A stretch of 64,000 bases of DNA from contig JAHJAR010000277.1 of assembly GCA_018814045.1 (NCBI GenBank), positions 62,001 through 126,000 of the forward strand. Reading direction: 5' to 3'. Source of the DNA: Planctomycetota bacterium. GTDB lineage: Bacteria > Planctomycetota > Phycisphaerae > UBA1845 > Fen-1342. Position 1 is the stretch's first letter. Each line of letters starts with the position of its first letter. Shown here piece after piece: positions 10,745 to 14,648 of the stretch. Made by a program: the position numbers and the translations under genes. The notes beneath the pieces were generated by a model, which was not told the origin of the DNA, did not search any database, and saw only the letters and a program-made list of their open reading frames with translations.

Positions 10745-11350
10745 CTACGCTTCCTTCCGCCCGCGCAGGGCCTCTTCGAGCATCGAGCGGTTGGCGTACT
10801 CGATCTGGGCGCCCGGGGCGAGTCCGCGGGCTAGGCGTGTTACTCTGACGCCGGTGTCGGCCAGCAGGCTGGTGATGTGCAGGGCGGTGGCGTCGCCCTC
10901 GATGGTGGGGTTTGTCGCCAGGATTACCTCGCGCACGCCGCCGGCCTTGACGCGTGCCACCAGGGCGTTGATCGTGAGGTCGTCGGGCTCGACGCCTTCG
11001 AGCGGGGCGATGTGGCCCATGAGCACGTGGTAGACGCCGGTCATCAGCCCGGTCGCCTCGAGGCTGAGCAGGTCCTTCGGCTGCTCGACGACGGCGATGA
11101 TGCCCTGATCGCGGCGGGCGTCGGCACAGATGTGGCACAATTCGCCCTCGGCGAGGTTGTGGCAGCGTGAACAGGGGCGGATCTCGTCCTTGGTAGCTCT
11201 GATCGCGTCCGCCAGCGCGAGGGCCTCGTCGCGCTCAGCCTTGAGCAGGTGAAACGCAACGCGCTCTGCGGAGCGCGGCCCAATGCCGGGGAGCTTCTTC
11301 AGCTCGTCGACCAGGCGTTGCAGGGGGCCGGTGAGGGGAACATCAGTCAT
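10745..11350 (-). CDS. recR: Recombination protein RecR
   Basis: RecR works with RecF/RecO to load RecA at gaps. The 201-residue protein starts at the ATG at 11350. It has an N-terminal helix-hairpin-helix ('LKKLPGIGPRSAERVAFHLL'), a C4 zinc finger ('PCSRCHNLAEGELCHICAD'), a Toprim domain beginning 'IIAVVEQPKDLLSLEATG', and the conserved 'GDATALHI' and 'TRLARGLAPGAQIEYA' segments. In most bacteria recR directly follows dnaX-ybaB; here it keeps the order and strand but is separated from ybaB by about 1.4 kb of repeats and gene remnants. Confidence 0.96.
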   Translation of the reverse strand: MTDVPLTGPLQRLVDELKKLPGIGPRSAERVAFHLLKAERDEALALADAIRATKDEIRPCSRCHNLAEGELCHICADARRDQGIIAVVEQPKDLLSLEATGLMTGVYHVLMGHIAPLEGVEPDDLTINALVARVKAGGVREVILATNPTIEGDATALHITSLLADTGVRVTRLARGLAPGAQIEYANRSMLEEALRGRKEA

Positions 11351-12079
11351 GCCGCTGGCTCGCGTTATTCGGGCGTCGTGCGGGCGTGTCCATTTGCGAC
11401 CACGCGGAGTGCGGGCGTCTGGCCCGCTACGTTCTGGCAGAATTCTTCGCGCCAGCGGCCGGCTCGTCAAGCGCCACCGGCAAGCACGGACCCGAAACTG
11501 TGCTGCCCATTGTGATGATCGGCATTCTGGTCCGAGGATGTCCTAGACTCCCCGCCGCACAACGAAGCCCGTTGTTGTTGAGGTTGTCCGGCGTGCTCCT
11601 ATTGCGATTCGCTGAACGCGCGATGTTGTCATGGTTGTTCCCGAGGTCATCTTCTTAGCCCCGCAGGGGCGCAGGTGCCTCGCCGCGGGCGCGAGCCCGT
11701 GGTATACGAGGCCCACCAAGCACCTGAGCCCCGGAGGGGCGGCGGTCGGTAGCCGGGGGCGCGGCCCCCGGTCAACGGGCCACAACACGAACGAGCCCCG
11801 GCGGGGCGCTGGTAAGCGTAGGTACCCCGCCCCTGAACTGGGGTGGAGCGTCGGCTGCCGGCGATTGTAGATTGAATCGGCGACCAGCAACGTAGGATGC
11901 GGCTTGCCGCACCGACCTCAAGGGACGGGCAGGCGAATGAGAATGGTGCGTCAAGACGCACCCCACACGACTGGATTCGGGCCGCAAGATCGGTGCGCAC
12001 GCAGCGCTTGCGTGTAATCCAGACAGGTAGGGCAGGTCGAGTCTTCGATCCCTGCGACCTCATCGAATGGCCGAGCGGA
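11351..12079. other. Non-coding stretch with palindromic repeats
   Basis: No convincing gene in this 729-base stretch. From 11657 onward it contains a three-copy GC-rich hairpin repeat (listed separately), then a TGCGGC/GCCGCA hairpin at 11898-11911 and a perfect GGTGCGTC-AA-GACGCACC palindrome at 11945-11962. I see nothing in 11351-11656. Confidence 0.6.
11657..11808. repeat. Three copies of a 15-bp GC palindrome spaced about 70 bp
   Basis: AGCCCCGSMGGGGCG occurs at 11657-11671, 11727-11741 and 11794-11808. Each copy can form a small hairpin (GCCCC/GGGGC). Intervening DNA is also rich in inverted GC blocks, e.g. CCGGGGGCGCGGCCCCCGG near 11755. Not a CRISPR: the spacers are long and the repeat is too short. 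Similar GC palindromes are common intergenic repeats in planctomycetes. Confidence 0.6.
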
Positions 12080-12160
12080 TCACCCCCCCTCGAGCATGTC
12101 CATCATGCCTTGCAGGTCCAGCCCGCCGGTGGCAGCCTCCATCGCGTTCTGGGTTGCTCC
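12080..12160 (-). pseudogene. 3' remnant of a ybaB-like gene
   Basis: On the minus strand this encodes 'ATQNAMEAATGGLDLQGMMD' followed by a few residues and a TGA stop. It aligns with the end of the intact neighbour ybaB ('AQKEMEAATGGLDMHGMMDM'), with mostly conservative or silent changes. The upstream part of the gene is missing: a CCCCACCC/GGGTGGGG repeat (12156-12187) begins exactly where homology ends. It is therefore a fragment of a diverged paralogue rather than a recent copy. Confidence 0.65.
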
Positions 12161-12776: not shown

Positions 12777-13115
12777 CTACTTGCCGAGCATGTCCATCAT
12801 GCCGTGCATGTCCAACCCGCCGGTGGCGGCTTCCATTTCCTTTTGCGCGCCTTCGCGGCTGAGCCGGATGCCTTCGCGGACAGCGGCGCAGATGAGGTCT
12901 TCGAGCATTTCAACGTCGCCGGCTTCGACCAGGGCCGGCTCGATCTTGATTTCCACCAGCTCACCGCGGCCGTCAACCGTGGCACGGACCTGGCTGCCGC
13001 CCGCCTCACCGCTGTAGCGGGCCGCCTTGAGCCGCTCCTGCATCTGCTGCATGTTCTGTTTGATCTGACCGGCGTTCTTGAGCAAATGGGCCAGTTGTCC
13101 GAATTGACCAAGCAT
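12777..13115 (-). CDS. ybaB: YbaB/EbfC nucleoid-associated protein
   Basis: A 112-residue dimeric DNA-binding protein of the YbaB/EbfC family: 'NMQQMQERLKAARYSGEAGG' then 'VRATVDGRGELVEIKIEPAL' and a C-terminal helix 'MEAATGGLDMHGMMDMLGK'. The start is 3 bases after the dnaX stop, so translation is likely coupled. dnaX-ybaB-recR is a widely conserved arrangement; in it YbaB is thought to act near the replication/recombination machinery. Confidence 0.93.
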   Translation of the reverse strand: MLGQFGQLAHLLKNAGQIKQNMQQMQERLKAARYSGEAGGSQVRATVDGRGELVEIKIEPALVEAGDVEMLEDLICAAVREGIRLSREGAQKEMEAATGGLDMHGMMDMLGK

Positions 13116-13118
13116 GTC

Positions 13119-14648
13119 TTACTCCGTGGCGTTGGCCGCCGGCGCGGCGGGCCGGCGTTGGATGTCGACAATCACCCCGTCGAACAACTCCATCGTACGC
13201 TGCACTACGGGATCCTTCATGATCTGGGCCCGCTCCTGCGACGTAACCGCAGCCGCCGGCAGCGAGCGAACCGGAGATTCCTGCCGAGCCTCTGGTGGAC
13301 TGTATTCCGCGGGGATCTCCGTATCGTCGTCCTCATAGTCCGCGACGGACTCCGCCACGGGGGTCGGATGGGAGGTTGGCACAGGCGGCGGCGTGACCGC
13401 GCGCGGCACCGGGTGCGGCTCCCGCGTATCCGGCGGGCTGCTACGCGTGTCGCTGGCCGGAGGCGGCCTCAACGGGGCGACCGGCTTTTTTTTTTCACCC
13501 ACGCCCGTGGTCGCGGCTGGCATGCGCGCCAGCAGGTCCTCGATCGCGGTCCATTCGCGCATGTGTGCCAGGCGGATCATGAGCGCGTCGGTCAGCGCCC
13601 GGCCGGCTCCGCTGAAGCGCACGTTGCGGCGCAGCTCTTCGAGCATGGCGATCATCTGCACGTACTGCGAGAGCTCGAATTCGTCGCTGAGGCTGACATA
13701 CTCGTCGCGCGCCCCGGCCGGCACGTCGACCATGGGCGCCTCGGGTCCGCAGGCCCGCAGCAGCATCAGGGCCCGCGCGACCTCGATCATGTCGTTGCAG
13801 AAAACCTCCAGCCCGCGGCCGGCGGCCAGAATGTCCTCGACCCCCGTCAGGACGGCCGCAACGCCCCCCTGCGCAGCGTTTTTCAGCAGCGCGAAGACCT
13901 GCTCGTCCTGGGCCGGCGGGAGAATCTCGTCCAGCACCTTGACGGTGAGCTTCTTGGGCGAGACCGACAGCAGTTGATCGAGGATGCTGAGCGCGTCACG
14001 CATCGAGCCGTTGGCCAGACGCGCGATGCGCCGAACGACCGCCGGTTCGGTCTCGGCGCCCTCTTCCTGCGCGATCGCCGCGAGTCGTTCGCCAATCGCC
14101 TCGGCGCCGATGTGGCGGAAGTTGAACCGCTGGCACCGGCTCTGGATCGTCGCCGGGACCTTCTGAAGCTCGGTTGTGGCCAGAACGAACTTGACGTGCG
14201 CGGGCGGCTCTTCCAGCGTCTTGAGCAGGGCGTTGAACGCTCCGGTCGAGAGCATGTGCACTTCGTCGATAATGTAGATCTTGAAGCGCGCCCGCGCCGG
14301 GCGGTACGCCGTGTTGCTGCGCAGCTCGCGGATGTTGTCGACGCCGGTGTTGCTGGCGGCGTCGATCTCGACCACGTCGATGTCCTGTCCCTCGGCGATG
14401 GCGACGCAGGCGTCGCACTTGCAGCAGGGTTTGACGGTGGGGGCCTTGGCCTTGAGGCAGTTGAGCGCCTTGGCCAGGATGCGGGCCATGCTGGTCTTGC
14501 CCACGCCGCGCGTACCCGTGAACAGGTAGCCGTGATGGATGCGTTTGGCCTTGATGGCGTTGACCAGCGTGGTGGCGATCGGCGCCTGGCCGATGACCTC
14601 GTCGAAGGTCTGGCTGCGGTATTTGCGGGCTAGAACGGTGTAGGCCAT
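13119..14648 (-). CDS. dnaX: DNA polymerase III subunit gamma/tau
   Basis: DnaX is the clamp-loader ATPase of the replicative polymerase. The 509-residue full frame (tau) has Walker A 'GTRGVGKT' at 45-52, a zinc module with C64, C75, C78 and C81, Walker B 'IIDEVHML' at 127-133 and the 'SRC' sensor at 170-172. After domain III the sequence becomes Pro-rich and ends with a conserved helix ('DPVVQRTMELFDGVIVDIQ'). At residues 385-388 the gene carries a run of ten A followed by G, a strong slippery sequence that predicts a 402-residue gamma product. The SRP RNA gene lies just upstream on the same strand. Confidence 0.97.
   Translation of the reverse strand: MAYTVLARKYRSQTFDEVIGQAPIATTLVNAIKAKRIHHGYLFTGTRGVGKTSMARILAKALNCLKAKAPTVKPCCKCDACVAIAEGQDIDVVEIDAASNTGVDNIRELRSNTAYRPARARFKIYIIDEVHMLSTGAFNALLKTLEEPPAHVKFVLATTELQKVPATIQSRCQRFNFRHIGAEAIGERLAAIAQEEGAETEPAVVRRIARLANGSMRDALSILDQLLSVSPKKLTVKVLDEILPPAQDEQVFALLKNAAQGGVAAVLTGVEDILAAGRGLEVFCNDMIEVARALMLLRACGPEAPMVDVPAGARDEYVSLSDEFELSQYVQMIAMLEELRRNVRFSGAGRALTDALMIRLAHMREWTAIEDLLARMPAATTGVGEKKKPVAPLRPPPASDTRSSPPDTREPHPVPRAVTPPPVPTSHPTPVAESVADYEDDDTEIPAEYSPPEARQESPVRSLPAAAVTSQERAQIMKDPVVQRTMELFDGVIVDIQRRPAAPAANATE
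13486..13495 (-). promoter_or_regulatory. A10-G slippery run in dnaX (recoding site)
   Basis: On the minus strand the message reads GAA AAA AAA AAG in frame. A -1 shift, or one extra A from transcriptional slippage, gives Lys-Ala-Gly-Arg and ends at a TAG at 13443-13441, 14 residues after the lysines. Losing one A ends after 7 codons at a TGA. Homopolymer A runs produce gamma in Thermus (slippage) and an A-rich heptamer does so in E. coli (frameshift). Such a run in an otherwise GC-rich gene is unlikely by chance. Confidence 0.7.

Follow-up and report, generated by a model that had tools for sequence, protein, structure and literature searches.

The gene of interest is dnaX, which lies on the minus strand of the 64-kb stretch of DNA analysed here (hereafter, the window) together with ybaB and recR; the positions of these genes, and of the features discussed below, are given in Table 1. 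A second copy of the ybaB 3' end is found between ybaB and recR, 694 bases off, as part of a 61-nt direct repeat (window positions 12091-12151 and 12785-12845, 85% identical). In the window, tau is a single open frame of 509 amino acids, without the 0-frame stop directly past the run of A's that defines the two-ORF form of the gene.

The run was located exactly as described in the original prediction: ten A's within dnaX, read GAA AAA AAA AAG. It stands 12 residues past domain III, according to Pfam, where the proline/alanine-rich linker of DnaX begins. A slippage site of the Thermus type would have its run, of A9 or longer, past domain III and ahead of the tau C-terminus, and this is where the A10 is found. 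Such a run is rare in DNA of this composition. In the window, whose GC content is 65%, 0.02 matches to the A9 pattern are expected, and none of 100 shuffles reaches the two overlapping matches that are observed. Across the 5.53-Mb genome, a pattern search finds A9/T9 or more at 8 places, and A10 only in dnaX.

Table 1. Features of the dnaX locus, in window coordinates.
Feature	Position	Strand	Evidence
dnaX, DNA polymerase III gamma/tau, 509-aa tau	13119..14648	-	TIGR02397 dnaX_nterm E 1.5e-126; Pfam delta2/AAA, lid, domain III
Clamp-loader domain III, residues 242-373, within gamma	13530..13925	-	PF12169 E 5.9e-9
A10 run, GAA AAA AAA AAG, dnaX codons 385-388	13486..13495	-	sequence; kept in 25/25 family genes
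TGA stop, +1 frame (A9 or A12 mRNA), 392/393-aa predicted gamma	13469..13471	-	computed translation
TAG stop, -1 frame (A11 mRNA or -1 ribosomal shift), 402-aa predicted gamma	13441..13443	-	computed translation
Conserved tau C-terminal motif DPVVQRTMELFDG, residues 479-491, absent from gamma	13176..13214	-	alignment, 21 family tails
ybaB/ebfC, start codon 3 bases past tau stop codon	12777..13115	-	TIGR00103 E 1.6e-20
recR, gene 3 of usual dnaX-ybaB-recR cluster	10745..11470	-	TIGR00615 E 6.8e-69

The consequences of a change in the number of A's can be computed directly. An mRNA with A10 encodes the 509-residue protein (55.2 kDa), whereas A11, or equivalently a -1 shift of the ribosome, yields 402 residues (43.6 kDa) and A9 yields 392 residues (42.7 kDa); A12 gives 393 residues, and A13 restores a long product of 510. 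The stops in the two non-zero frames lie 14 and 4 codons from the run, and near stops in both frames are what is expected of a Thermus-type site. These translations bear out the earlier claim that an extra A, or a -1 shift, leads to a stop 14 codons on and to a protein of 402 residues. The claim that loss of one A also causes an early stop stands as well, at the TGA that ends the 392-residue product, although the distance of 7 codons given for it holds if one counts from the GAA codon. Both misreadings end just past domain III, as had been proposed: Pfam places the end of that domain at residue 373. What the short products would lack includes a C-terminal motif, DPvV...leLFdG, which stands out from the variable linker in an alignment of 21 family tails. 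To judge from other bacteria, the tau tail probably carries the contacts with the polymerase and the helicase.

The genus is represented by one genome, and so we turn to the family, which comprises 27 genomes, 25 of them with a dnaX gene that reaches the position of the run. The original prediction had named lack of conservation in close relatives as grounds for refutation, and the run is present in all 25 genes, as A10 in 24 and as A9 in one. In the family alignment, identity is 96-100% across the run and mostly 40-60% in the flanking columns, a contrast that is expected of a Thermus-type site. The bases next to the run vary while its length stays constant; for example, one gene (L005) has CAA for GAA, and another (L024) has AAC for AAG. 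Beyond the family, A9-10 occurs in 68 of the 98 usable dnaX genes of the order. Further afield, where genes were sampled non-randomly from the matches listed, mostly the best-scoring ones, so that percentages are rough, A9-10 occurs in 59/80 genes from other orders of the class, in 8/19 from other classes, and in 135/197 across the phylum. All 135 of these long runs have a length of 9 or 10, and none has 11 or more. Named Planctomycetota records with similar runs include Gemmata, Schlesneria, Aporhodopirellula and Phycisphaerae MAGs. In one relative (L028, genome G019), the dnaX linker at codons 410-424 contains two stretches of C's, 25 and 14 long, near a contig end; these are perhaps an artefact of assembly.

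The stops are conserved along with the run. In the family, the first stop is met after a median of 10 codons in the -1 frame and of 4 codons in the +1 frame. For whichever stop is farther, the median is 10 codons, against 54.6 at control positions within these genes, and not one of 5000 draws gives a value as low. In the order, the farther stop lies at a median of 7 codons in genes with the run and 86.5 codons in genes without it. Of the order's 63 run-bearing genes, 52 have both stops within 20 codons and 11 have no near stop in one of the frames; of its 28 runless genes, none has both stops that close. At the level of sequence comparison, this pattern shows that selection acts on the run and also on the stops in both wrong frames.

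On the tree of these dnaX genes, at least 11 changes between presence and absence of the run are needed. Six of the comparisons are supported and independent; in these, the stops either follow the run or do not differ, and never show the opposite pattern (sign test, median p 0.06). Judging by the sequences, the run and its two stops seem to form a single unit, retained or lost jointly. Approximately 30% of the order is without the run, and therefore gamma is not universally needed; in the runless dnaX genes of the order we found no K tract and no obvious substitute site.

Several explanations other than slippage by RNA polymerase must be weighed against these patterns. The genome is a draft MAG in 365 contigs with 7% contamination, which invites the suspicion of a homopolymer or assembly error, or of chance. 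However, the run is shared by many separately assembled genomes, including one that consists of a single contig (G007), and with 0.02 A9 expected in the window an origin by chance or error can be rejected. As a general explanation, homopolymer error is excluded by the occurrence of exactly A10 at the same place in 24 family genomes. A second possibility is that the run is kept for the sake of the protein, as a lysine-rich patch past domain III, given that two or three lysines are encoded in every phase. Elsewhere in the family's dnaX genes, however, lysine is encoded by AAG 264 times and by AAA 83 times, a preference for AAG of three to one; the runless relatives have no K tract of any kind; and the paired stops in the other frames would be left unexplained. 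Codon choice and stops together largely refute this reading, which we regard as most improbable. Equally remote is the idea that replication slippage toggles tau on and off at the level of the DNA, as a form of phase variation. Past the run, tau is out of frame in 20 of the 135 A9-10 genes, as phase variation would allow. But the out-of-frame genes also have lengths of 9-10, never 11 or more, where phase variation predicts a spread of lengths, and tau is expected to be essential.

The more serious alternative is a -1 ribosomal frameshift of the E. coli type, in which uniform transcripts would be shifted on the in-phase A_AAA_AAG to produce the 402-residue gamma. Such a shift depends on A_AAA_AAG and on a stop in the -1 frame, and as a rule on stimulatory elements too. 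The window and 23 of the 25 family genes have the heptamer in phase, and the -1 stop is near; since the in-phase heptamer is present, ribosomal shifting would be possible if the window's genome were the only evidence. Any A9-10 run contains some in-phase A_AAA_AAN; for this reason the occurrence of the run in varied phases supports slippage less than it might seem to, and we do not treat codon phase alone as proof. The stops in the +1 frame, at a median of 4 codons, are however superfluous for a -1 shift, and A7 would be enough for the ribosome while A9-10 is what has been kept. Nor did we find the stimulators. Downstream of the run, folding is no stronger than in shuffled sequences (z of +0.08 in the window, mean z of +0.25 in the family), in a search that covered stem-loops. 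A Shine-Dalgarno-like element about 10 nt upstream occurs in 3 of 24 family genes, and the window's dnaX is not among them. The genome contains genes for both tRNA-Lys(UUU) and tRNA-Lys(CUU), a state that has been linked to transcriptional slippage in Thermus (Atkins et al., PMC5009743) and that counts against the ribosomal reading. Finally, the phylum contains a set of sites that do fit the ribosomal pattern, and these differ from ours. Among 15 genes with A7-8, 13 are in phase 2, and stops in the +1 or third frame are mostly not close. The 135 A9-10 sites, in contrast, are found in every codon phase; most of them have just one frame left open, and tau follows in the 0, the -1 or (in two genes) the +1 frame. 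The two groups differ with p 0.0004 and p 0.0014, relatedness being ignored. From these sequence patterns, it looks as though the A7-8 sites are ribosomal and the A9-10 sites are sites of polymerase slippage. The original prediction had drawn a parallel with both Thermus and E. coli and had left the mechanism open. The parallel is retained, but the Thermus type is favoured over the E. coli type because of the near stops in both frames, the lack of detected stimulators, the 9-10 run in any phase and the two lysine tRNAs. We consider a purely ribosomal mechanism unlikely, though clearly less so than the other alternatives.

We therefore return to RNA polymerase. The A10 is likely to be a site of programmed transcriptional slippage, of the kind known from Thermus, that yields both tau and gamma, and the window's dnaX very probably makes two proteins, the long and the short subunits of the clamp loader, through stuttering of the polymerase. 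We infer that the polymerase would realign on the ten template T's and so produce dnaX mRNAs with varying numbers of A's. Those with A10 or A13 would encode tau, of 509 or 510 residues; those with A9, A11 or A12 would meet a stop 4 or 14 codons past the run and encode a gamma of 392-402 residues. A Thermus-type site would be expected to give gamma and tau at about 1:1. The predicted gamma would keep the ATPase and the clamp-loader domains I-III, while its truncation would remove both the linker and the motif conserved at the C-terminus of tau. The ribosome may also slip on the in-phase A_AAA_AAG and so contribute some gamma.

It is useful to compare this proposal with the systems already described. 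In Thermus thermophilus, transcriptional slippage in dnaX occurs at an A9 (Larsen et al. 2000, via PMC1088944 and PMC5009743), and in many genomes the threshold for slippage is a run of nine (PMC1088944). The Thermus gene resembles the window's in having tau in the 0 frame, an A9-type run late in the coding sequence, close stops in both other frames and two lysine tRNAs. It differs in the length of its run, A9 rather than A10, and in the position, at seven eighths of the gene as opposed to codon 385 of 509, or three quarters; moreover, slippage and the two proteins have been measured in Thermus, whereas the window's case is known from its sequence. With E. coli dnaX the window shares the in-phase A_AAA_AAG and, by prediction, a truncated gamma that ends just past the site. 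Unlike in E. coli, no Shine-Dalgarno-like element or hairpin was found in the window, the +1 frame is closed too, and the A10 exceeds what the heptamer requires. A further group consists of two-ORF dnaX genes in which a poly-A run precedes tau and a shift is needed to reach it: 17 genes from 12 genera, of which nine genes have 10 A's (Antonov et al. 2013, PMC3711429). There, too, an A10 stands at the same kind of place and slippage by RNA polymerase has been proposed, but the window's tau is read in the 0 frame. In our search of the literature for dnaX slippage together with Planctomycetes, we found only PMC3711429, in which the phylum is mentioned in the genome table. As read from its sequence, the window's dnaX is an extension of a known kind of slippage, for which we found no Planctomycetota report in the literature searched, and the comparative support for it is strong.

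The two-ORF form itself occurs among the relatives (genomes G026, G056, G081 and G086, family f22, and others). In L200 (G026), L191, L165, L132 and L303-L308 (f22) there is an A10 after which the 0 frame soon ends, with tau in the -1 frame. Past the run, the +1 frame carries tau in L236 and perhaps also in L248. In single cases such out-of-frame arrangements may reflect indels in the assembly. A different arrangement is found in L258, L262-L264, L266, L297 and L312 (families f10 and f24), and in L037, L039, L040 and L045: these have an A7 (in one case A8) in the phase A_AAA_AAA, a 0 frame that closes no more than a few codons (in many cases one) past the run, and a -1 frame that is long and open. 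From their sequences, ribosomal -1 shifting probably makes tau in these relatives, which is the reverse of the situation in E. coli. Five further genes (L275, L299, L300, L301 and L314) have no A run; their 0 frame ends at approximately 375-380 codons, just past GGGAAAAGC(C/A)TGA. It is possible, given this sequence, that such sites are a G_GGA_AAA at which the ribosome shifts to tau. L260 has GGGAAAA near the end of the frame, with the 0-frame stop several codons further on.

Across the phylum, we think it somewhat probable that slippage by RNA polymerase is the common route to the two clamp-loader subunits, and that at this same spot slippage has repeatedly been lost, has had its tau frame flipped or, in certain families, has given way to ribosomal -1 sites (A_AAA_AAA or G_GGA_AAA). 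If so, the phylum would offer a naturally occurring series of cases where one layer of recoding stands in for the other. The dnaX run extends a textbook but thinly sampled case, that of Thermus, to a phylum whose members are mostly uncultured. Since run-bearing and runless species occur side by side, the purpose of gamma, and the reason why some bacteria manage without it, could be tested by comparison.

Elsewhere in the same genome, at G000:C182:23200-25300 (L211), on the minus strand, an A9 stands between an open frame of 196 codons and another frame. The upstream piece has no match in Pfam, and the second frame has a weak match to the DDE_3 transposase (E 1.6e-4, below the Pfam cut-off). 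As a weak lead, the sequence makes it possible that this locus is a transposase that uses slippage.
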